From positions 3,990,501 through 4,054,500 of the forward strand of contig NZ_LT629751.1 of the NCBI RefSeq assembly GCF_900104805.1: DNA of 64,000 nt. Direction: 5' to 3'. Positions 2,809-54,147 of the stretch are shown piece after piece (within the stretch, counting starts at the first letter, position 1; each line of letters starts with the position of its first letter). Source of the DNA: Pseudomonas oryzae. Lineage in GTDB: Bacteria; Pseudomonadota; Gammaproteobacteria; Pseudomonadales; Pseudomonadaceae. The notes under the pieces were generated by a model. It was not told where the DNA came from. It saw nothing but the letters and a program-made list of their open reading frames with translations, and made no database searches. Position numbers and translations under genes: made by a program.

Positions 2809-4092
2809 TCAGCCGCTCGCGGCCTCGTCCTGCGCGCGGGCGGCGTGCGCCGCGCCGACTGCCTGATCGAGCACCCGCTGGCGCGGCAGCAGCCACAGGC
2901 ACCAGGCCAGCAGCAGGGCGCCGGCGCCGCCCAGGGTGACGGGGGCGCCGAAGCGGGTGGCGAGCAGGCCGGCGCACAGGCCGCCGAGGGCCTCGAAGCC
3001 GAAGCGGCAGGCGATGTAGAAGGACACCACGCGACCGCGCAGGGCGTCCGGCGCCATGCTCTGCAGGAGGATGTTGGTGCCGACGTTGGCGCAGGTCAGG
3101 CCGAAGCCGAGCAGGACCATGGCGGCGAGCGCCAGGGGCAGCCGCGTGCTGTTGGCGAACAGCAGCAGGGCGCCGCCGCACAGCGCGCTGGTGACCAGGA
3201 TCAGCCACACCTGACCGTCGGTCGAGCGACGGCTGGCGAGGAACAGCGAGGCGGCCAGCGCGCCGCCGCCGGCCGCGCCCCACAACCAGCCGAGGGTGCT
3301 GGCGTCGCCGGCGAACACGTCCTTGGCGAACACCGGCAGCAGCACCACGTAGCAGGAGGCGCACAGGTTGAGCATCGCGACGCCGAGCATCAGCCGGCGC
3401 ATCGCCAGCTCGCCGCGCAGGTAGTCCAGGCCCTGGCGGAACACCGCCCCGACCGAGCCGCGCGCCGCCGGCGCCGCTTCGATGCGCATCAGGCGCAGGC
3501 CGGCGAACAGCGCCAGATAGGAGGCGGCGTTGAGGGCGAAGCAGAACGCCTCGCTGCTGACGCCGAGCAGCAGGCCGGCCAGCGGCGGGCCGACGAAGCG
3601 CGAGCTGTTGACCAGCATGGCGTTGAGCGCCAGGGCGTTGGGCAGGTCGGCGCGCGTGTCGATGAAGCGGCTCATCAGTGCCTGGCGGGTCGGTGTGTCG
3701 AAGGCGTTGAGCACGCCGAGCAGGGCGGCCATGGCCACCAGCAGGTGGGGCGTGACCCAGCCCAGCGCGGTGAGCGTGGCCAGCGTGGTGGCCTGCACGC
3801 AGAGCAGGCCCTGCACCTGTTGCAGCAGGCGGTGCTTGTTGCGGCGGTCGATCCAGGCGCCGATCAGCGGGCCGATCAGCAGCTGGGGGGCGAGGGCGAG
3901 GAAGCTGGTCAGGCCGAGCAGGGCGCTCGAACCGGTCAGCCGGTAGACCAGCCAGGCCAGCGCCACCTGCTGGATCCAGTTGCCGAGGATCGACACCAGC
4001 TGGCCGCCGAAGTACAGGCGGAAATTGCGATGGCGCAGTGCGCGCACGGCTTGGGGCCAGCGGCTGGCGCCGGCGGACGGGGTGGCACTCAC
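2809..4092 (-). CDS. MFS exporter, MFS_3 / EntS-like family
   Basis: An inner-membrane protein of about 427 residues with roughly twelve hydrophobic segments. The opening after a short cytoplasmic arm ([20 protein letters not shown], then [20 protein letters not shown]) is characteristic of the MFS_3 group, which includes enterobactin exporter EntS. The loop motif [14 protein letters not shown] fits MFS motif A. The substrate is unknown. The start is uncertain: the frame stays open to a TTG at 4107, and I chose the GTG at 4092. No siderophore genes are adjacent. Confidence 0.78.
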
Positions 4093-36960: not shown

Positions 36961-36977
36961 GGCGGGGGATGGCGCAG

Positions 36978-37005
36978 GGTGGGCAACCGCGTAGCGTTAC
37001 CCACC
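36978..37005. repeat. REP-like palindrome GGTGGGCAAC / GTTACCCACC
   Basis: Ten-base arms with one mismatch around CGCGTAGC, in the 247-bp gene-free stretch between znuA and the methyltransferase-like gene. A second degenerate unit (GGAAAATCGCTGCGCGAGTTTTCCACC) lies near 37036-37062, and GTAGGG / CCGTAACCC-type pieces fill 37100-37205. I see no gene in this stretch. Confidence 0.7.
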
Positions 37006-37207
37006 AGCGCACGCGGGGTGGCCACTCCACGGTGAGGAAAATCGCTGCGCGAGTTTTCCACCCTACGGGCTGGAGCAGCTCCGAGGCAGGTGGATAGGTA
37101 GGGTAGGGCAGGCCGTAGGCCGTAACCCACCGACCGGCCGCCAGGCCGGCAACGGGGATGCCTGGCGGCATCCCGGGCGGGTTACGCCGCGGCGCGGCTG
37201 ACCCGCC

Positions 37208-40377: not shown

Positions 40378-40544
40378 CGTGACTGTCCTTTGTTCTTGTG
40401 GTCTTGGTGGGGTCGACTGCCCGCTGGGCAGCGGCGCTATGCTGGTGCGCACACGGGCCGCGCAACAATCCGGGCAAGCCAGCTTGTGTGCGATAGGCGC
40501 ACGGAAAGTGAGGGCAAGCCGGCGGCAGGATGCCCAGCCGCCGC

Positions 40545-41975
40545 TCAGCCCTTGACGCACACCAGCGGCCGCAGCCGCGCCACCCGCCGCGCCAGGCCGG
40601 CCTGCTCGGCGGCCTCGACCACCGCGCCGACGTCCTTGTAGGCCAGCGGCGCTTCCTCGGCGACGCCGCGCAGGCTCGGGCTGCGGATCAGGATGCCGCG
40701 CCGCGCCAGCTCCTCGACCACGCTACGGCCCTGCCAGCGGCGCAGCGCCTCGTGGCGGCTCATCGCCCGCCCGGCGCCGTGGCAGGCCGAGGCGAAGGCA
40801 TGGCTCTGGCTGCCGCCACTGCCGGCCAGCACCCAGGAGCCGGTGCCCATGCTGCCGCCGATCAGCACCGGCTGGCCGACCGCGCGGTACTCGGCCGGCA
40901 GCTCCGGATGGCCGGGGCCGAAGGCGCGGGTGGCGCCCTTGCGGTGGACGAACAGGCGGCGGCGCACGCCGCCGACGACGTGGCTTTCCTCCTTGCAGGT
41001 GTTGTGCGACACGTCGTAGAGCAGCGGCATGGCGATGCCGGGGAACAGCTCGGCGAACGCCGCGCGCGCCAGCTGGGTGAGGATCTGCCGGTTGGCCAGC
41101 GCGCAGTTGATCGCCGCACGCATGGCGCCCAGGTAGCTCTGCCCCAGCTCGGATTTCAGCGGCGCGCAGGCCAGCTCGCGGTCGGTGAGCTGGATGCCGG
41201 CGCGCGGCGCGGCGATCACCATCTCGCGCAAAAAATCCGTGCCGATCTGGTGGCCCATGCCGCGCGAGCCGCAGTGGATGGTGGTCAGCACGTCGCCGAC
41301 GTGCAGGCCGTAGGCCTGCGCCGCCTTGAGGTCGAACAGTTCGTCGACCACCTGCAGCTCCAGGTAGTGGTTGCCCGAGCCGAGGGTGCCCATCTCGTCG
41401 CGCTGGCGGTGCCTGGCCTCGGCCGACACCGCGGCCGGCAGCGCGCCGGCCATGCAGCCGCCTTCCTCGATGCGCGCCAGATCCTCCGGGCTGCCGAAGC
41501 CCTGCTCGACCGCCCATCTGGCGCCGCCGCGCAGCATCGCGCCCATCTCCTTGCCGGTCAGGCGCAGCGCGCCGGTGCTGCCCAGACCCGCCGGGATGCG
41601 GCGGAACAGCAGGTCGGCGAGGCGTTCCCTGACCGCCGCGATGTCGGCTTCCTTCAAGCCGGTATGCAGGCTGCGCACCCCGCAGGAGATGTCGAAGCCG
41701 ACCCCGCCGGCCGACACCACGCCGCCCGCGTCGGCGTCGAAGGCCGCCACCCCGCCGATCGGGAAGCCGTAGCCCCAGTGGGCGTCGGGCATGGCGTAGG
41801 CGGCGTCGACGATGCCCGGCAGGGCGGCGACGTTGGCCAGCTGTTCGCCGACCTTGGCGTCCATCGCCTCGAGCAGCTCGCGCGAGGCGAAGATCACCCC
41901 CGGCACGCGCATGGCGCCGTACCGGGGCATCTCCCATTCGAAGGGGCCGCGCTGGCGGAATTGGGCAAGGTCCAT
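40545..41975 (-). CDS. rtcB: RtcB RNA ligase
   Basis: A 476-residue GTP- and Mn-dependent ligase that joins RNA 2',3'-cyclic phosphate or 3'-phosphate ends to 5'-OH. Metal-binding features: MPDAHWGYGFPIGG, the cysteine in GGVGFDISCGVRSL, GSGNHYLELQ, IHCGSRGMGHQIG and DVSHNTCKEE. The guanylylated histidine is in ACHGAGRAMSR near residue 399. ATG 41975 has GGAGAG upstream. It is the last gene of a minus-strand cluster whose far end encodes archease, its cofactor; no rtcA or rtcR is present. Confidence 0.95.
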   Translation of the reverse strand: MDLAQFRQRGPFEWEMPRYGAMRVPGVIFASRELLEAMDAKVGEQLANVAALPGIVDAAYAMPDAHWGYGFPIGGVAAFDADAGGVVSAGGVGFDISCGVRSLHTGLKEADIAAVRERLADLLFRRIPAGLGSTGALRLTGKEMGAMLRGGARWAVEQGFGSPEDLARIEEGGCMAGALPAAVSAEARHRQRDEMGTLGSGNHYLELQVVDELFDLKAAQAYGLHVGDVLTTIHCGSRGMGHQIGTDFLREMVIAAPRAGIQLTDRELACAPLKSELGQSYLGAMRAAINCALANRQILTQLARAAFAELFPGIAMPLLYDVSHNTCKEESHVVGGVRRRLFVHRKGATRAFGPGHPELPAEYRAVGQPVLIGGSMGTGSWVLAGSGGSQSHAFASACHGAGRAMSRHEALRRWQGRSVVEELARRGILIRSPSLRGVAEEAPLAYKDVGAVVEAAEQAGLARRVARLRPLVCVKG

Positions 41976-42041
41976 CGACGCTCTCCAGTGGGGAAGCCGT
42001 CGCCTGACTATAGGCGAGCGCCCCCGACCGGGGAGGCCCGG

Positions 42042-42293
42042 TCATCCGCCGGCCAGGCACCGGCGCAGATAGGCCAGCAGCACGTCCAGGGTGGTGAGTT
42101 GCTGGTAGTCGGCCTCGGGGATGTTCACCCCCAGGCGCTGGTGCAGGGCGGCGAGGAAGCGCAGCCAGTCCATCGAGTCGAGGTCGACCTCGTCGCGCAG
42201 CGGGCGGTCGCCGCGCAGGGTCTCGGGCTCGACCTCCGGGGCGATGCCCTGCAGGGCGGCGAACACTTCGTGGCGCAGTTGCGCGTCATCCAT
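42042..42293 (-). CDS. Acyl carrier protein
   Basis: An 83-residue acidic carrier. The phosphopantetheine attachment serine is in EVDLDSMDWLRFLAAL near residue 40. It is not in a fatty-acid or polyketide cluster; it starts 13 bases after the E2 stop and 66 bases before rtcB. The neighbouring acyl-CoA-synthetase-like ligase or E2 could supply its acyl group, but this is conjecture. Confidence 0.88.
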   Translation of the reverse strand: MDDAQLRHEVFAALQGIAPEVEPETLRGDRPLRDEVDLDSMDWLRFLAALHQRLGVNIPEADYQQLTTLDVLLAYLRRCLAGG

Positions 42294-42306
42294 CGGGTTT
42301 TCCTCC

Positions 42307-43482
42307 TCACAGACGGTCGGGGTCCTGCAGGCGGCGGCGCAGCTCGGCGAGAAAGCGCGCGCCGTAGTGGCCGTCGCTGGCGCGGTGGTCGGCGGCCAGG
42401 CTGAACTGCGCAGTGGTCAGCGCGCAGACTTGGCCTTCGACCACCCAGGGGCGCTCGGCGATGCGGCCGACGCCGACCAGCGCCACCTGCGGCGGGTAGA
42501 TCACGCCGAACACGCCGTCCACGCCCTGGTCGCCGAGCTGGGTGACGGTGAGGGTGGCCTCGCTCAGCTCCGAGCTGCGCAGCGAGTAGCTGCGCGCGCG
42601 CTGCACCAGGTCGCCCAGTTCGGCCATCAGCTGCGCCAGCGGCTTGTCGGCGACGTCGTGCAGCGCCGGGGCGATCAGCCCGCCCTGGCGCAGCGCCACC
42701 GCCACGCCGAGGTGGATGCCGGGGCCCGGCCGGAAGGCGTCGTCGCTCCAGAAGCCGTTGAGCTGCGGGTAGTCGCGCAGGGCCAGGGCCACCGCCTTGA
42801 GCACCAGCACGCCGGGCAGCAGGCGCCGCTCGGGCGGCAGCTCGGCGTTGTGCGCGGCGAGCCAGGCCAGCGCGGCGGCCATCGGCACCGTCTCGCTCAG
42901 GTAGTAGTGCGGGATCTCGTGCTTGGAACGGCTCATCGCCGTGGCGATGGCCTGGCGCATGGCGGCGTGGCGCTCCAGCGGCGTGGCCGGTTGCGCGGCC
43001 GGTCTGCTCGCGGCGGCGGCCTCGACGTCGGCCAGGCTGACCGAACCCTGCGGACCGGTGCCGGCCAGCGCGGCGGGATCGAGACCCAGCTCGGCGGCGC
43101 GCCGGCGTGCGGCGGGGGTGATGCGCGGGCGGCTGGCCGGCGCTGTGCCAAGCGTTGCTGCTGTCAGGGCTGGCGCCGGCTGGGCGGGTTTCGGCGCGGC
43201 GGTGCTGAGCGGGCGCGGGGTGCGCGGCGCCGTCTCCGCCGACTCACCGGCCTCCAGCAGGGTGGCGATGGGCGTGCCCACCGCCACCTTGGCGCCGGGC
43301 TGGATCAGCAGCTCGAACACCGTGCCGTCCTGCCAGCACTCGATCTCCACCGCCGCCTTGGCGGTGTCGACCACCGCGACCACCTGGCCGCGCGTGACCG
43401 CCTGGCCCGGTTCGACCTGCCATTCGAGCAGCGTGCCCGCGTCCATGTCGGCGCCGAGGGCGGGCATCCTGAATTCGATCAT
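42307..43482 (-). CDS. 2-oxoacid dehydrogenase E2 (dihydrolipoamide acyltransferase)
   Basis: A 391-residue E2 with one N-terminal lipoyl domain (lipoyl Lys42 in VDTAKAAVEIE), an Ala/Pro linker, a peripheral-subunit-binding domain (about 119-156) and a catalytic domain (about 168-391). The active-site motif is DHRASDG at 365-371, retaining the His and Asp of the usual DHRxxDG. It is shorter than housekeeping AceF of pseudomonads. AAGG precedes the ATG at 43482. It is separated from E1 beta by a 290-bp REP-rich gap. No E3 gene is present in the cluster. Confidence 0.92.
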   Translation of the reverse strand: MIEFRMPALGADMDAGTLLEWQVEPGQAVTRGQVVAVVDTAKAAVEIECWQDGTVFELLIQPGAKVAVGTPIATLLEAGESAETAPRTPRPLSTAAPKPAQPAPALTAATLGTAPASRPRITPAARRRAAELGLDPAALAGTGPQGSVSLADVEAAAASRPAAQPATPLERHAAMRQAIATAMSRSKHEIPHYYLSETVPMAAALAWLAAHNAELPPERRLLPGVLVLKAVALALRDYPQLNGFWSDDAFRPGPGIHLGVAVALRQGGLIAPALHDVADKPLAQLMAELGDLVQRARSYSLRSSELSEATLTVTQLGDQGVDGVFGVIYPPQVALVGVGRIAERPWVVEGQVCALTTAQFSLAADHRASDGHYGARFLAELRRRLQDPDRL

Positions 43483-43493
43483 GCGTACCTTCC

Positions 43494-43549
43494 CGTAGGG
43501 TGCGCCGTGCGCACCATCGATCCTCGCGGTGCGCACGGCGCACCCTACG
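43494..43549. repeat. Perfect 22-bp inverted repeat
   Basis: Arms at 43494-43515 and 43528-43549 (outer sequence CGTAGGGTGCGCCGTGCGCA) are exact complements across a 12-base spacer, immediately upstream of the E2 gene. It is the largest palindrome in the E1 beta-E2 gap and carries the GTAGGGTGCGC motif also seen at 8306. Confidence 0.92.
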
Positions 43550-43602
43550 CCCGCAACCGCTTCGCGCCGGTCTGCGGCACTGCACCGGCTTGCAGCGCCG
43601 GT

Positions 43603-43630
43603 GGTGGGTAACGCTGCGCGGTTACCCATC
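43603..43630. repeat. REP-like palindrome, copy 1
   Basis: GGTGGGTAAC facing GTTACCCATC around GCTGCGCG. The same unit recurs exactly 135 bases to the right at 43738, with the sequence on both sides also conserved. Confidence 0.85.
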
Positions 43631-43637
43631 CTACGTT

Positions 43638-43680
43638 TCAGGCCCGGCCGGGCAGATGCTTGGCCGCCGCGACGATGGTT
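43638..43680 (-). pseudogene. Remnant duplicate of an E1-beta 3' end
   Basis: Read on the minus strand this stretch encodes TTIVAAAKHLPGRA then TGA. The intact E1 beta gene ends [13 protein letters not shown] then TGA, and the bases after both stops (CGTAGGRTGGGTAACC) are the same. It is therefore a diverged copy of the last 14 or so codons of E1 beta plus its trailing palindrome, left by duplication or by deletion of a second E1 beta gene. Upstream the frame runs into another palindrome with no further similarity. Confidence 0.75.
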
Positions 43681-43691
43681 GTAGCGCGTAG

Positions 43692-43721
43692 GGTGGGAAA
43701 CTGCCGCAGGCATTTCCCACC
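43692..43721. repeat. REP-like palindrome GGTGGGAAA / TTTCCCACC
   Basis: Nine-base perfect arms around CTGCCGCAGGCA. It is placed between the E1 beta tail remnant and the second copy of the GGTGGGTAAC unit. Confidence 0.75.
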
Positions 43722-43737
43722 AACACACACCGCCGGT

Positions 43738-43765
43738 GGTGGGTAACGCTGCGCGGTTACCCACC
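43738..43765. repeat. REP-like palindrome, copy 2
   Basis: GGTGGGTAAC / GTTACCCACC around GCTGCGCG, seven bases downstream of the E1 beta stop codon on the minus strand. It can form an RNA hairpin at that gene's 3' end and may weaken or shape read-through into E2. Confidence 0.85.
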
Positions 43766-43772
43766 CTACGCT

Positions 43773-44750
43773 TCAGGTCCGGCCGAGCAGGCCCTTCGCC
43801 GCCGCCACGATGGCCGGCACCTGCGGCAGCGCCGCGTCTTCCAGGTGCTTGGCGTAGGGCGTCGGCACCTCGGCGCTGCACACTCGCGCCGGCGGCGCGT
43901 CGAGGTCGAAGAACGCCTGCTCGACGATGCGCGCCATCACCTCGGCGGCCAGGCTGCCGCTGCGCCAGCCCTCGTCGACCACCAGCGCGCGGCGGGTGCG
44001 GCGCACCGATTCCATGATGGTGACGTCGTCCAGCGGGCGCAGCACGCGCAGGTCGAGCACCTCGGCGGCGATGCCGTCGCCGGCCAGCTGCTCGGCGGCC
44101 TCCAGCGCCTTGCCCAGGGTACCGCCGTAGGCGATCAGGGTCAGGTCGCTGCCGGCGCGGCGCACCCGCGCCGAGCGGATGTCGACCACCTCCGTCTCGT
44201 CCAGCTCGCCCTCGAGGTTGTACAGCGCACCCTGCTCGAACAGCAGCACCGGGTCGGGGTCATGCAGCGCCGGCCAGAGCATGCCGCGGGCGTCCTCCAG
44301 GGTGGCCGGGGCGAGGATCCTCAGGCCGGGGATGTGCGCCAGCCAGCCCTCCAGGCTGTGCGAGTGCTGCGCGGCGAGCTGGCGCCCGGCGCCGGTGGTC
44401 ATGCGCACCACCAGCGGCACCGAGAACTGCCCGCCGGACATGTGGCGCAGGGTGGCGGCGGTGTTCACCAGCTGGTCGAGGGCGAGCAGGCTGAAGTTCA
44501 CCGTCATCACCTCGACGATCGGCCGCAGGCCGCCGAGCGCCGCGCCGATGCCGGCGCCGACGAAGGCCAGCTCGGACAGCGGGGTGTCGCGCACCCGCTC
44601 CTCGCCGAACTCGTCGAGCAGGCCCTTGCTCACCGCGAAGGTGCCGCCGTAACGGCCGACGTCCTCGCCCATCAGGAACACCCGCGGGTCGCGCGCCAGC
44701 GCCTCGCGCAGCCCCTGGCGCAGCGCCTCGCGGTAGCTGATGCGGCTCAT
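43773..44750 (-). CDS. 2-oxoacid dehydrogenase E1 component, beta subunit
   Basis: A 325-residue transketolase-like subunit. [19 protein letters not shown] and [20 protein letters not shown] open the pyrimidine-binding domain with its catalytic Glu region ([20 protein letters not shown]); the C-terminal domain contains [18 protein letters not shown]. It resembles PdhB/AcoB-type subunits. Its ATG overlaps the E1 alpha stop by four bases. A diverged copy of its last codons lies 135 bases downstream. Confidence 0.93.
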
Positions 44751-45726
44751 GGCTGCGGCTCCGGCGTATGGAGGTCGCGCGCCAGATCCGCGACCGGCTC
44801 CAGGCTGCCGGCCTCGGCGAAGGCCACCGCCGCTTCCACCTCGGCGGCCGCCTCGGCTTCCAGCGCCGCCGCGCCGGCCGCGTCGAGCAGGCCGTCGGCG
44901 AGCAGCCGCGCGCGGTAGCCGGCGATCGGGTCGCGCTGCTTCCACGCCTCGACCTCGGCCTTGTCGCGGTAAAGCTCGGGGTCGAACATCGAGTGGGCGC
45001 GGAAGCGGTAGGTCTGGTACTCGAGGAACACCGGGCCGTGGCCGGCGCGCACCTGCTTGGCGGCCAGGCGGGTGGCCTGCTGCACGGCGACCACGTCCAT
45101 GCCGTCCACCGCGCGGACCGGCACCTTGAACGCCTCGGCCTTGGCGCACAGGTCGGTCTGCGCCTGCGAGCGGGCCAGCGCAGTGCCCATGGCGTAGAGG
45201 TTGTTCTCGCAGCAGAACAGCACCGGCAGTTGCCACAGCGCGGCGAGGTTCAGCGACTCGGCGGCGGCGCCCTCGGCCAGCGCGCCCTCGCCGAAGAAGC
45301 AGGCGGTGATGCGCTTGCCGCCCTGCAGGCGCTCGGCCAGCGCCAGGCCCACCGCCAGCGGGATGCCGCCGCCGACGATGGCGTTGCCGCCGAAGAAGCG
45401 CCGGGCGGCGTCGAACAGGTGCATGGAGCCGCCGCGGCCGCGGCAGCAGCCCTCCCGCCGGCCGTACATCTCGGCCATGATCGCGTTCATCGGTGTGCCG
45501 CGCAGCAGGGCGTGGCCGTGCTCGCGGTAGGTGGCGACCACCGCGTCGCCGGCCTCCAGGGCGTGCAGCGCGCCGGTGGCCACCGCCTCCTCGCCGATGT
45601 ACAGGTGCAGGAAGCCGCGGATCTTGCCCGCGCCATACAGCTCGGCGCAGCGCTCTTCCATCCGGCGGATGCGCAGCATGTCGCGCAGCAGGGTCACGGC
45701 GAACTCGGCCGGGTAGGGCACCGAAC

Positions 45727-45730
<4 letters not shown>
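44747..45730 (-). CDS. 2-oxoacid dehydrogenase E1 component, alpha subunit (PdhA-like)
   Basis: A 327-residue thiamine-diphosphate-binding subunit. [20 protein letters not shown] and [19 protein letters not shown] are signatures of pyruvate-type E1 alpha rather than the branched-chain type. The TPP/Mg motif normally GDG...NN reads GEG (147-149) ... ENN (175-177), so the Asp that usually binds Mg is Glu. Start and stop overlap those of its neighbours (ATGA at both ends), placing it in a tightly coupled acs-E1 alpha-E1 beta unit. Confidence 0.92.
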
Positions 45731-47487
<1,757 letters not shown>

Positions 47488-47556
47488 CGGCGGCTCCTGT
47501 GCGCTTGGCTCCCTTCGCCCGCTGGCGAGAGGGACCGGGGAGAGGGAAAGCCGGCG

Positions 47557-49182
<1,626 letters not shown>

Positions 49183-49342
49183 CGGGGGTGCCTCCTTCGT
49201 CATTGAGCGGCGGCGGGATCGGCTCGTCGCCGGAGTCCTTTCAGCGTAGCGAGGGGATGGAGAGTTCGCCGGGCCGGCCGGCTTGACGGATCGTTCACGT
49301 CGCCCCGGCCATACTGGGGCTCTCATTCCAGGAGGATTCAGC

Positions 49343-49867
49343 ATGTTTGGCAGACGGACAGGTTCGCTCGCCAGCGTCGCCCTGGCGCTGCTGGTCGCCG
49401 TGCCCATGGCGCAGGCGGGAACGCCGGAGATCTACGGCTGGGTCGAGGAGAGCCGCCTGCTCCCGGAGAACGTCACGGTGAAGAGCAAGCTCGACACCGG
49501 CGCGCTCACCTCGTCGCTGGATGCCAAGGAACTCGAGCGCTTCGACAAGAACGGCGAGAAGTGGGTGCGCTTCAAGGTCGAGGTGAAGGACAGCGACACC
49601 GGCAAGCAGGTGAGCATCCCCTTCGAGCGGCGCCTCGAGCGCGACGTCAAGGTGCGCGGCGCCGGCGGTGCCGAACGGCGCCCGGTGGTAATGATGCAGA
49701 TGTGCATCGGCAGCCATCTACTCGACGAGCAGTTCTCCCTCAACGACCGCGGCGACATGCTCTACCCGGTGCTGATCGGCCGGCGCACCCTGGAGCACCT
49801 CGGCGCTGTGGACGTCTCGCGCACCTTCACCCACAAGCCCAGCTGTCCGGGCGGCAAGGCCCGATAA
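49343..49867 (+). CDS. Retropepsin-like putative ATP-dependent zinc protease family protein
   Basis: A 174-residue protein with a Sec signal ([18 protein letters not shown]) and the RimK-associated retropepsin-like domain (DUF785). The aspartic signature is [38 protein letters not shown] is the second conserved block. These proteins are exported or periplasmic here, and true protease activity is unproven. CAGGAGG precedes the ATG. It is oriented opposite to the GroEL and archease genes that flank it. Confidence 0.85.
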
Positions 49868-49939
49868 CCGGCCCGGCCCAGCCAGACTCATCGCGCCGCA
49901 CCCCGGCAGCGCCAGCCGGAGCATGACGGCGCGCGCTGT

Positions 49940-50353
49940 TCAGACGTCGACCACCGCCTGTGCCAGCCAGCTGCCGTCCGCCTGCTGACAGACCTTCAGC
50001 TCGCAGAACGACACCCCCTTGGCCTCCGCCGCCGGCTGATGCCGCGCCACGTCCACCGCCTCGCCCCAGGCGCTGGCGTGCAGGCGGGTGCCGTCGATCC
50101 TTATCTCGAAGCGCGAGAACAGCAGGTGGCGGGTGGCCATGCGGTAGATCAGCGCGTTCAGCCAGTCGACCAGCAGCAGCTCCAGGTCGGGCGCGGCGCA
50201 GTCGATGGTCAGTGACTGCTTCGGCATCACCGAGGCCGGATCGCAGATCGCGGCGGTCAGCGCCAGCGCCGCGCCGGCGAACGCCTCCTCCAGCGTGGCA
50301 CCGCTGCCGCGTACGCCGATGTCGGCTTCGTGGGGGAAGGTTTGCCAGGGCAT
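49940..50353 (-). CDS. Archease
   Basis: A 137-residue protein of the archease family, which accelerates RtcB guanylylation and permits multiple turnover. FPHEADIGVRGSGATLEEAF, LLLVDWLNALIYRM and KGVSFCELKVCQQ are conserved blocks, and the C-terminal VVDV supplies the acidic metal-binding residue. Its partner RtcB is encoded about 8 kb away at the other end of the same cluster, same strand. Confidence 0.93.
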   Translation of the reverse strand: MPWQTFPHEADIGVRGSGATLEEAFAGAALALTAAICDPASVMPKQSLTIDCAAPDLELLLVDWLNALIYRMATRHLLFSRFEIRIDGTRLHASAWGEAVDVARHQPAAEAKGVSFCELKVCQQADGSWLAQAVVDV

Positions 50354-50588
50354 GGGGGCTCCGGGGCTGGAAGTCGACGCAACCTCATACAAGCTGTAAC
50401 CGGCGTGGCGCCTTTTTTCCAGTCATGCGGCAGCCGCTTCGGTAGATCCGTCTGATGCCTCAATTGCCGCCTACTGTAGATCAGCCTGCTAGTAGACGTG
50501 ACAGGCGGTGAGCGCCAATGATCGCTCATCTCGCAATGGTGTGGTGTGCTCCTGGCTGCTATAGAGTTGGCTTGCTGCAGTTTTACTT
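50354..50588. other. Gene-free, AT-richer junction
   Basis: Between archease and the GIY-YIG gene the sequence changes visibly from GC-rich to mixed composition (for example CTGCAGTTTTACTTTTAGTT at 50573-50592). I see no ORF with a convincing start, no tRNA and no integrase. It probably marks the left edge of a small inserted segment. Confidence 0.5.
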
Positions 50589-51410
50589 TTAGTTGCTGTT
50601 GAAGCCATGCATGCGAGTCATCAGTATCTCTTTCCAATGGCTCTCACGCTTACGCATGTTTTCCGGGCTTTCGCTGACGTCTGCGATTTCAAGGATTGAG
50701 TAACGAAACCCTGTGAGTCTGTCTGTTCCGCCGGCGTTCATTAAATCAATCAACTCCACATTTCCGCCATGCCCCGTATCAGCATATTGCACCCAGCGCT
50801 GCCAGATTCCTGCTCCACCAGTAGCACTGCCCACATAGAGTTTTCCTGAAACAGTGTCGGAAATCAGGTAGACCCCCGCGACGCTTGATAATGCTGTGCG
50901 CCAAGACTCTGGAGCGCTTCGGACCATGACCTGGAGGTCCTGGCGAGAAAGCAGTACCTTCTTGAACCCGGGGAACTCACCGATGCTGACTGCTTCACCC
51001 TTCCACTCGACTGCCTCGAACAGATCTTCCCATTTGTCCATGAGTAGGTATGACTGACGACCAGGGCGAGAAAACTTGACCACCAGCCGAGCTTTAAAGT
51101 CGCGAAATTCTTCAAGCTCTTCCAAGTCATAGAAAAATAAGTCTGGCCTGTTCTCCCTGATGACAGGTTTGCACGATTGGTATACGCCGGCGAATAGCCA
51201 GTGGTTTGGCTTTTTGAGTTTGATCAGGGAGACGACGAATTTCCGCTCGAAGTTTTTCTGTGACTGCCATTTTTGCCAGCGCTCGAAATTACCGCTGAGC
51301 AATTCGTCGTAAGGGTCTTCTCCCTCTTCATTTGGGACTGCGAGATGGACCTTGGCTGCTTTGGAAGAGAAGGTGGGTGACAACGTTCTGAGCAGGTCGA
51401 TAAGGAGCAT
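50589..51410 (-). CDS. GIY-YIG-domain protein with unknown N-terminal domain
   Basis: A 273-residue protein. The C-terminal third carries a GIY-YIG-type nuclease core: VAGVYLISDTVSGKLYVGSA, then IWQRWVQYADTGH, with KRESHWKEIL supplying the Glu-rich end. The N-terminal 150 residues (FERWQKWQSQKNFERKFVVS, RPDLFFYDLEELEEF) match nothing I recognise but resemble the extra domain of phage- or defence-associated GIY-YIG proteins. Codon usage is much less GC-rich than in all neighbouring genes, suggesting acquisition. The target is unknown. Confidence 0.75.
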   Translation of the reverse strand: MLLIDLLRTLSPTFSSKAAKVHLAVPNEEGEDPYDELLSGNFERWQKWQSQKNFERKFVVSLIKLKKPNHWLFAGVYQSCKPVIRENRPDLFFYDLEELEEFRDFKARLVVKFSRPGRQSYLLMDKWEDLFEAVEWKGEAVSIGEFPGFKKVLLSRQDLQVMVRSAPESWRTALSSVAGVYLISDTVSGKLYVGSATGGAGIWQRWVQYADTGHGGNVELIDLMNAGGTDRLTGFRYSILEIADVSESPENMRKRESHWKEILMTRMHGFNSN

Positions 51411-51485: not shown

Positions 51486-51767
51486 TCAACGCTTCCCCGC
51501 CTCCCGATAAACCTCCCCGCGCTCCCGCTTGCCCACGGCGATCACCGCCACGGTGATTTCCTGCTCGCGGACTTCGTAGACCAGCCGGTAGCCGGCCGAG
51601 CGCAGCTTGATCTTGTAGCGGTTGTGGCTACCGCTGAGGCGGTCGCCCGGCACTACCGGGTTTTCCAGGCGCTCGGCCAGTTTCTTCTTGAACTGCTCGC
51701 GGACGGTGTCGCCGAGCCGGCGCCATTCCTTGAGGGCTTCTTCCTTGAAGACCAGCTTATAGGTCAT
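51486..51767 (-). CDS. RelE/ParE-family toxin
   Basis: A 93-residue basic protein (MTYKLVFKEEALKEWRRLGD, KIKLRSAGYRLVYEVREQEI, VIAVGKRERGEVY) of the RelE type, which cleaves mRNA on the ribosome. The basic/aromatic C-terminal catalytic residues (Arg61-like, Tyr87-like) appear in RSAGYRLVY and GEVYREA. It overlaps the antitoxin gene by 11 bases, the standard layout. Confidence 0.9.
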   Translation of the reverse strand: MTYKLVFKEEALKEWRRLGDTVREQFKKKLAERLENPVVPGDRLSGSHNRYKIKLRSAGYRLVYEVREQEITVAVIAVGKRERGEVYREAGKR

Positions 51768-52005
51768 CCAGCGAGACCTCGACTTCCGGCGAGTGCTGGC
51801 GGCTGTCGGCCAGGGCGTTGAGCTCCAGGTCTTCCAGGCGCGCCAGCAGGGCCTCGTAGGCTGGAGCGGGCACGCAGTAGAACGCCGGTTCGTTGCGATT
51901 GAGGATGGCCACCGCGCCGCCTTCGCCGGCCGCGACCGTACCCATGGGGTTGCGCTTGAGCTCGGAAATGCTGGCGGCAACGTCGGACAGCACCAAGTGA
52001 GTCAT
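51757..52005 (-). CDS. Phd/YefM-type antitoxin
   Basis: An 82-residue antitoxin: LSDVAASISELKRNPMGTVA is the N-terminal DNA-binding/dimerisation part, NRNEPAFYCVPAPAYEALLA the Phd/YefM signature, and the acidic tail (SPEVEVSLDDL) the toxin-binding end. CAGGAG is eight bases before the ATG. It precedes and overlaps the toxin gene, and the pair is presumably autoregulated. Confidence 0.9.
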   Translation of the reverse strand: MTHLVLSDVAASISELKRNPMGTVAAGEGGAVAILNRNEPAFYCVPAPAYEALLARLEDLELNALADSRQHSPEVEVSLDDL

Positions 52006-52068
52006 CGGCTTTGCTCCTGCTTGGGGGAATCGTTGGAGAGCCATTATAGGTGCTTTCAATGGTGCTGT

Positions 52069-53880: not shown

Positions 53881-54147
53881 GCTGGAGTCCTTGGCCGGAG
53901 GGCGGAAGGGGGAACATTGCCGGCAAGGCCCGGCGCCCTTCCGCCGTGCCGGTAGGCGCGGAGGGGCGAGCGCCGGGTGCCCATCCCTTCAGCGTAGCGG
54001 GGGCAGGGGAGTTCGCTGCTGCCCAGGTGGGGCGCTCTCTGCTGCACCGGGGGCTTGCGCGCGGCAGGCTACACTGCGGCTGTCGGTCGTCAGGATGGCG
54101 GAGCCGCCGCCTTGCGACGCAGGTCAATCGGACGTCGAGGGCTGCGC

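Follow-up and report, generated by a model that had tools for sequence, protein, structure and literature searches.

A widespread ACS-E1-E2-acyl carrier protein cassette between the separated archease and RtcB genes of Pseudomonas oryzae

In the genome of Pseudomonas oryzae, the genes for the predicted RNA ligase RtcB and its helper archease stand at the two ends of a group of genes that encode a GroEL paralogue, an AMP-forming ligase, a 2-oxoacid dehydrogenase, and an acyl carrier protein (ACP), and the question raised by this locus is whether all of these genes serve a single function. The locus is contained in a stretch of 64,000 nucleotides, referred to here as the window, that corresponds to positions 3990501 to 4054500 of a 4.64-Mb single-contig genome (G000); Pseudomonas sagittaria and Pseudomonas linyingensis are among its near relatives as judged by RtcB. 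The original prediction, made from the sequence alone, saw in these genes a single module. Our analysis gives an about even chance to the reading that two units meet here, namely, an archease-RtcB pair that has become separated and a mobile, putatively acetyl-generating cassette with its own ACP.

All eight predicted genes were confirmed on the minus strand, and the features of the locus, in window coordinates, are the following.

40545-41975, minus: RtcB RNA ligase, long archaeal/eukaryotic-like form, 476 amino acids (PF01139, 553 bits)
42042-42293, minus: dedicated ACP, fifth gene of the cassette (PF00550, 36.9 bits)
42307-43482, minus: E2, with lipoyl domain, E3-binding domain, and acyltransferase core (three Pfam domains)
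43483-43772, minus: E1beta-E2 gap of 290 bp, mostly repeat element (repeat comparison)
43773-44750, minus: E1beta (NF006667, 387.8 bits, cut-off 321)
44747-45730, minus: E1alpha (TIGR03182, 437.4 bits, cut-off 393.85)
45727-47487, minus: AMP-forming acetate--CoA ligase (ACS), with which the cassette begins (NF003313, 846.8 bits, cut-off 729)
47557-49182, minus: GroEL paralogue, optional member (TIGR02348, 744.6 bits, cut-off 582.1)
49241-49267, minus: conserved block upstream of groEL, GAACTC-N16-GCTGA, resembling a promoter for an extracytoplasmic function (ECF) sigma factor (core seen in four loci)
49343 (ATG) to 49867 (stop), plus: RloA3-type retropepsin-like peptidase between archease and groEL (NF052264, 241.9 bits, cut-off 210)
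49940-50353, minus: archease (PF01951, 134.7 bits; matches solved archeases)

The tight junctions reported for these genes were borne out by 4-bp (ATGA) overlaps at ACS/E1alpha and E1alpha/E1beta, with spacings of 69 bp between GroEL and ACS, 13 bp between E2 and ACP, and 66 bp between ACP and RtcB. The E1beta-E2 gap holds two direct 86-nucleotide repeat copies that are 88% alike (43593-43678 and 43728-43813), the second extending into the end of E1beta, and an inverted copy lies at 36972-37009.

The best conserved unit at the locus is the run ACS-E1alpha-E1beta-E2-ACP, which is mobile and in whose architecture we have very high confidence. It was found on one strand and in the same order in the window and in 40 fetched loci, some of them close relatives of one another, from Alpha-, Beta-, and Gammaproteobacteria and from Rhodococcus, often on plasmids and near universal stress proteins. 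Two of these 41 copies (L178 and L182) may be broken or misread, since their ACS matched in two frames. Sixteen genomes of an evenly drawn class sample (274 genomes) matched E1alpha at 1e-90; the 10 with an identity of at least 62% all carried the five genes in order, and the remaining six matched at 52 to 56%. In a tree of E1alpha plus E1beta (trees were built by a quick method, with labels that we assigned), a 100% branch separated 42 cassette rows from the only four other pyruvate dehydrogenases (PDHs) included, which were drawn from those six. E1alpha was matched in 13 of 148 Pseudomonadaceae genomes, 12 of which had all five genes. On plasmids, 26 records matched the ACP at 1e-8, and 14 of the 16 stretches fetched contained the full cassette; the genera concerned are Cupriavidus, Paraburkholderia, Rhodococcus, Sinorhizobium, Methylocystis, Leisingera, Tropicibacter, Ciceribacter, Azospirillum, and Photobacterium. 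No description of this gene combination was found in the literature searched.

Altered copies of the cassette were also observed. In a member of the Azotobacter group (G353, locus L177), a decayed cassette consists of E1alpha and E1beta beside RtcB and an ACS fragment, without E2 and ACP. The remaining two plasmid stretches, from Rhodococcus pDK2 and pLPS8 (L186 and L199), hold remnants composed of an E1beta piece, an E2 piece, and the ACP; the island around them also encodes Hsp20, ClpB, and thioredoxin. On Leisingera and Tropicibacter plasmids (L189, L190, and L198), E1alpha and E1beta share one annotated frame of 1998 bases, that is, an E1 fusion.

The second unit is the archease-RtcB pair. 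The window RtcB gave long matches to the solved RtcB structures of Thermus, Pyrococcus, and human, and its alignments with the Pyrococcus and Thermus proteins show that the His/Cys/Asp motifs are kept. By these features it belongs to the RtcB family with active-site motifs, and RNA ligase activity is predicted. Bacterial RNA repair with an RtcB ligase is represented by rtcBA/RtcR of Escherichia coli, which has the ligase in common with the present locus, where a long archaeal-like RtcB occurs with archease. The two had been called partners, and their genomic association supports this. In a scan of a species-genome collection, from which the best 80 RtcB loci were kept (many of them shorter than 20 kb), a near full-length archease was located at most 1 kb upstream on the same strand in 76 loci and at most 300 bp upstream in 74. 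The median spacing was 27 bp between alignment ends (77 matches, including a remnant in L022), and archease was not found at L021, L023, and L088. Archease is also encoded in all 11 Pseudomonadaceae genomes with the long-form RtcB, the distance being 3 to 15 kb in seven genomes and about 35 kb in three (G005, G006, and G007), with the two genes on different contigs in G023; the pair is thus wide open in this family. RtcB relatives in other Pseudomonadaceae mostly matched the long RtcB at roughly 28 to 41% identity. As to individual archease copies, that of G005 (C246:27287-27686) matched in two overlapping frames, and L022 has a 36-residue archease remnant before groEL (2893-3000); in G004, the genome to which L022 belongs, a full archease is found about 10 kb from RtcB on the same contig. 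Archease and RtcB are usually neighbours, and the pair would have been pulled apart here by an insertion.

Is the company of the two units then more than chance? Cassette genes were present in 13 of the best 80 RtcB loci, from Pseudomonas/Azotobacter, Aromatoleum and other Rhodocyclales, and Burkholderiales. The grouping therefore extends beyond close relatives and is not accidental as regards co-location. Four arrangements were seen: just upstream of RtcB (Pseudomonas/Azotobacter), just downstream (Aromatoleum, L027, and L029), on the opposite strand (L034 and L048), and upstream at some kilobases (L066, L082, and L087), the cassette running off the contig end in L066 and L082. In Pseudomonas/Azotobacter, the cassette lies between archease and RtcB, in part with the GroEL paralogue. 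The linked or unlinked state changes 10 times on the RtcB tree, at least seven of the changes being forced by well-supported branches. Of the 148 Pseudomonadaceae genomes, 13 have the cassette, 11 the long RtcB, and 8 both, within 15 kb of each other in seven and at about 30 kb in G006, where random placement predicts less than 1% per genome, given a span of 30 kb in 4.6 Mb. The genome-wide cassette search covered the rank-ordered loci L024 to L062, in which 14 of 39 genomes had the cassette, eight of them within about 10 kb of RtcB, and six further chosen genomes (L066, L075, L077, L082, L087, and L098), three selected because E2-ACP was already visible; L063 to L065 and most of L067 to L100 were omitted.

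This recurrence is what speaks for the single unit originally proposed, in which RtcB and archease repair RNA and the chaperonin protects a special acyl-generating complex. It is strengthened by three loci in which the eight families share a strand, namely, L118 of Pseudomonas and, from metagenome-assembled genomes (MAGs) near Thauera by RtcB, L027 and L029; the GroELs of the two groups were recruited separately. Several observations nevertheless speak against an obligate unit bracketed by RtcB and archease. In the class sample, 10 genomes have the cassette, 61 the long RtcB, and 3 both, as compared with 2.2 expected if independent; seven of the 10 cassette genomes lack the long RtcB at 1e-120, and in the two genomes with both, besides the window, cassette and RtcB are on different contigs of draft assemblies. 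Five of the 13 cassette-bearing Pseudomonadaceae likewise have no long RtcB. Among plasmids (chromosomes were not part of this search), the eight records with a close E1alpha and the four with a close RtcB did not overlap. A natural locus without the cassette, archease-RloA-GroEL-RtcB, exists in G001 (L117). In the window itself, the plus-strand RloA3-type gene splits archease from groEL, which makes it unlikely that archease shares a transcript with the other genes; in the congener G003 (L118), no RloA gene intervenes and the two are about 110 bp apart. In some lineages, then, the two units are genuinely and repeatedly linked, and neither needs the other. The idea of one RNA-repair and dehydrogenase unit is only partly borne out, and we consider it improbable; a looser functional tie among the eight families may exist.

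The chaperonin behaves as an optional member. The paralogue is 52% identical to the other GroEL of the genome and keeps the apical motif segments associated with GroES binding, but it ends in PPMPGME without a GGM tail, and no groES is adjacent. The claim that the chaperonin has no GroES therefore holds at the locus but not genome-wide, as a groES-groEL pair with a GGM tail is encoded at about 168 kb. Close GroEL copies (94 to 97%) accompany the locus in L022, L117, L118, and L178. The archease-side GroELs of L027 and L029 are 53 to 54% identical to the window paralogue and nearer to ordinary GroEL (60 to 61%), and L075 has a 65% relative near archease on the other strand. Because the L027 and L029 proteins are not close to those of Pseudomonas, the chaperonin appears to have been recruited more than once. 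GroEL is absent from most loci in which RtcB and the cassette are linked.

What the cassette might do can be judged from its enzymes. The ligase passed the NF003313 equivalog and scored 451 with TIGR02188, under the cut-off of 724.95; a general acyl-CoA ligase identity was rejected, as the scores point to the acetate type. The AMP-ligase motif Lys is present in 40 of the 41 copies, with one gap. E1alpha and E1beta both exceeded curated cut-offs for the alpha/beta-type PDH (E1beta passed NF006667 and missed the equivalog NF008854, with 376.4 under 454), and pyruvate is the predicted substrate. E2 keeps the lipoyl Lys and the catalytic His in 41 of 41 copies and the Asp in 38, and its E3-binding domain scored 43.2 bits with PF02817 (cut-off 23.7). 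The cassette thus resembles the alpha/beta-type PDH complex in its E1alpha, its E1beta, and an E2 with lipoyl, E3-binding, and acyltransferase domains. It differs in having no E3 of its own, in its association with a dedicated ACP and with an acetate ligase of the AMP-forming type, in an E1alpha that mostly carries GEG at the GDG position (GEG in 34 and GDG in 7 of 41 copies), in an E2 that passes no NCBIfam equivalog (best pyruvate-E2 score 213.6 with TIGR01349, against 445), and in the separation of its E1 from the four PDHs in the tree. The reported lack of an E3 is correct for the locus but not for the genome, in which one lipoamide dehydrogenase over the cut-off is found at 2016635 (G000:C1). 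We rejected the absence of E3 and GroES from the locus as meaningful; both are encoded elsewhere, and such absence is ordinary. An AceE-type PDH is also encoded in G000, which makes the cassette complex a second PDH of the genome.

The dedicated ACP was confirmed in every full cassette, and its attachment Ser is present in all 41 copies. It is not AcpP by the NCBIfam equivalogs (best 25.8 bits against 84), although it exceeds the PF00550 threshold of 20.8. With a profile of 12 rows, all from cassettes, the cassette ACPs scored 114 to 130 bits, five others 76 to 100 bits, and the next best of the 274 genomes 46.4 bits; judged by this score gap, the cassette ACP is a separate subfamily. A chance neighbourhood of the ACP was considered and rejected, and no ACP relative was found in a phage collection at 1e-6. 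In two genomes of one genus (G139 and G262), the ACP directly follows an ACS orthologue (NF003313, 862.7 and 862.8 bits), with no E1 or E2 in the stretch and no E1alpha genome-wide at 1e-90. This ACS-ACP pair links carrier and ligase and resembles the AasR-AcpR system of sphingolipid synthesis, where the cognate ACP is the sole acyl acceptor of an enzyme annotated as an acyl-CoA synthetase (PMC9386255). The likeness lies in an AMP-forming ligase annotated as a CoA ligase with its own specialised ACP (PMC9386255), a pairing without other partners that is seen again in G139 and G262. The difference is that fatty acids are used there, as opposed to an acetate-type ligase coupled to a PDH here, where exclusive ACP use is hypothetical.

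Other ACPs of intermediate score or unusual position were noted. The G139/G262 pair is divergent from a protein that joins an ATP-grasp CoA-ligase and a GNAT domain (898 amino acids in L171, incomplete in L170, where the contig ends), and a 64% homologue of this protein is encoded about 0.9 kb away from a second ACP copy in G175. Fusions of an ADP-forming-type acyl-CoA ligase and GNAT lie near an ACP without PDH at L171:4784-7480 and L172:1416-4100. Proteins of this kind can acetylate ACS-type enzymes, and a regulatory role of the fusion is possible. The ACPs of G123 (L173) and G253 are apart from any cassette gene.

Based on these features, we propose that the cassette is an alternative acetyl generator with two inputs, presumably pyruvate and acetate. 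E1 would decarboxylate pyruvate and load the lipoyl arm of E2, which would be reoxidised by the host E3 through the E3-binding domain, and ACS would activate acetate as acetyl-AMP. The phosphopantetheine arm of the ACP would take acetyl from ACS and probably also from E2, with CoA possibly used in parallel, and the resulting private acetyl-ACP pool may feed lipid or polyketide-type synthesis or serve maintenance under low oxygen, dormancy, or stress. That the ACP accepts acetyl at all is, in our judgement, somewhat short of an even chance. The fuller version, in which PDH and acetate ligase load the dedicated ACP instead of or before CoA and the whole is a mobile dormancy cassette shared by Pseudomonadota and Actinomycetota, is tentative and rather unlikely as it stands.

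Several findings weigh against this proposal. ACS retains arginines at the positions of the CoA-binding residues Arg191, Arg194, and Arg584 in Salmonella Acs; it therefore probably still uses CoA, and exclusive ACP use as in AasR-AcpR becomes doubtful. As the ACP profile was built from cassette sequences alone, these ACPs score high by construction. The ACS-ACP pair without PDH is limited to a single genus, no single acetyl-ACP user recurs at the loci inspected, and several chromosomal cassettes of the class sample have no visible stress neighbours, as judged by eye from cut translations. Alternatively, the cassette might be a second, stress-expressed PDH with an acetate scavenger that makes ordinary acetyl-CoA, the ACP serving either in E2 assembly, for instance as an octanoyl donor for lipoylation of this E2, or as a structural subunit. 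This alternative, which we also rate as rather unlikely, draws on the same arginines and on the acetyl-CoA-directed equivalog cut-offs that E1alpha and ACS pass. Asp precedes the invariant lipoyl Lys in no more than 2 of 41 copies, which could call for special lipoylation, and the intermediate-scoring ACP of G123, a genome without the cassette, is encoded about 6 kb from lipB, with unrelated genes between. What speaks against this alternative is the pairing of the ACP with ACS in G139 and G262, where the stretch has no E1 or E2.

The surroundings of the cassette point to stress. Universal stress proteins are encoded in six of eight annotated full-cassette plasmid stretches, and some of these stretches also carry Hsp20, FtsH, Lon, a BON-domain protein, or ppsA. 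Near the cassette of Rhodococcus pDK1 are a GAF histidine kinase with a response regulator, CBS proteins, ppsA, a trehalose-phosphatase, two KAS-III-like proteins, and a phosphofructokinase-type kinase. In L028, L066, and L184, a gene near the cassette or RtcB encodes a protein that combines ACP, AMP-ligase, and acyltransferase domains. A stress-island role of the cassette is thus likely, and stress induction is predicted. A comparable island is the low-oxygen-activated (lxa) locus of Burkholderia cenocepacia, which encodes universal stress proteins and a heat-shock protein together with metabolic enzymes, among them a phosphofructokinase (PMC6127331). In contrast to the present loci, the main text of PMC6127331 does not contain the terms "RtcB", "acetoin", "chaperonin", and "acyl carrier", and the passages of it considered here contain no PDH; the similarity to the lxa/DosR-type dormancy regulon would be a resemblance of neighbourhood only.

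A shared regulon alone could also explain the locus: RtcB-archease, GroEL, and the cassette would be separate stress tools in an island that is co-regulated and transferred as a block. We find this fairly probable, and it is compatible with the meeting of two units. It agrees with the other frequent neighbours of RtcB in the best 80 loci, namely, a NAPRTase family (20 loci), an isochorismatase-type hydrolase (15 loci), and a LonB-type protease (13 loci), each family being a cluster named after one representative. It also agrees with the RtcB tree, in which the Pseudomonadaceae proteins share a 99% set with those of Rhodocyclales and of unclassified proteobacterial MAGs, a placement consistent with acquisition from these groups. 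Furthermore, the core of the block upstream of groEL is present in the window, L022, L117, and L118 (with the -35-like half altered in L117), and a related block precedes a SulP-type transporter gene (53989-54014, minus strand), the two blocks together having the form GAACTC-N15/16-GCTGA. With at most two mismatches, the core occurs at only three places in the genome; the third match (L138) is within a coding frame and was discarded as chance. The likeness of the groEL and SulP blocks to the AlgU/ECF consensus is a resemblance only, and that these eight families have come together repeatedly suggests something beyond chance. Other regulatory signals were sparse: no FNR/Anr-type sites (TTGAY-N4-RTCAA, TTGA-N6-TCAA) and no strict sigma-54 matches were found in the window, with seven loose sigma-54 matches between 36000 and 52500, and a scan of 40400-50700 gave no sigma-70 site and one terminator-like site, as compared with 2.3 expected.

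The eight named genes and RloA matched no defence family in PADLOC. Directly beside archease, a minus-strand gene (50589-51410) encodes a 273-amino-acid protein with a weak GIY-YIG domain that scored 206.6 and 158 bits with PADLOC UzuA models and is a candidate anti-phage gene. It is followed at 51486-52059 (minus) by a ParE-type toxin (PF05016) and a Phd/YefM-like antitoxin, the latter under the Pfam cut-off. This toxin pair lies in a patch at 50 to 52 kb with 59% GC, against about 70% on either side, which is perhaps a recent arrival.

Taken together, these findings describe an RNA-repair pair whose members now flank a cassette, and a chaperonin recruited beside the same genes in two lineages. 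Even if its product were plain acetyl-CoA, the cassette would be a well-bounded and widespread module with an ACP for which the literature searched offers no explanation. If the ACP accepts acetyl from E2 or ACS, the output of a PDH would bypass the CoA pool, among stress genes and on plasmids in two phyla, and it would become testable how cells keep acetyl units for lipids or storage once CoA-linked metabolism stops.

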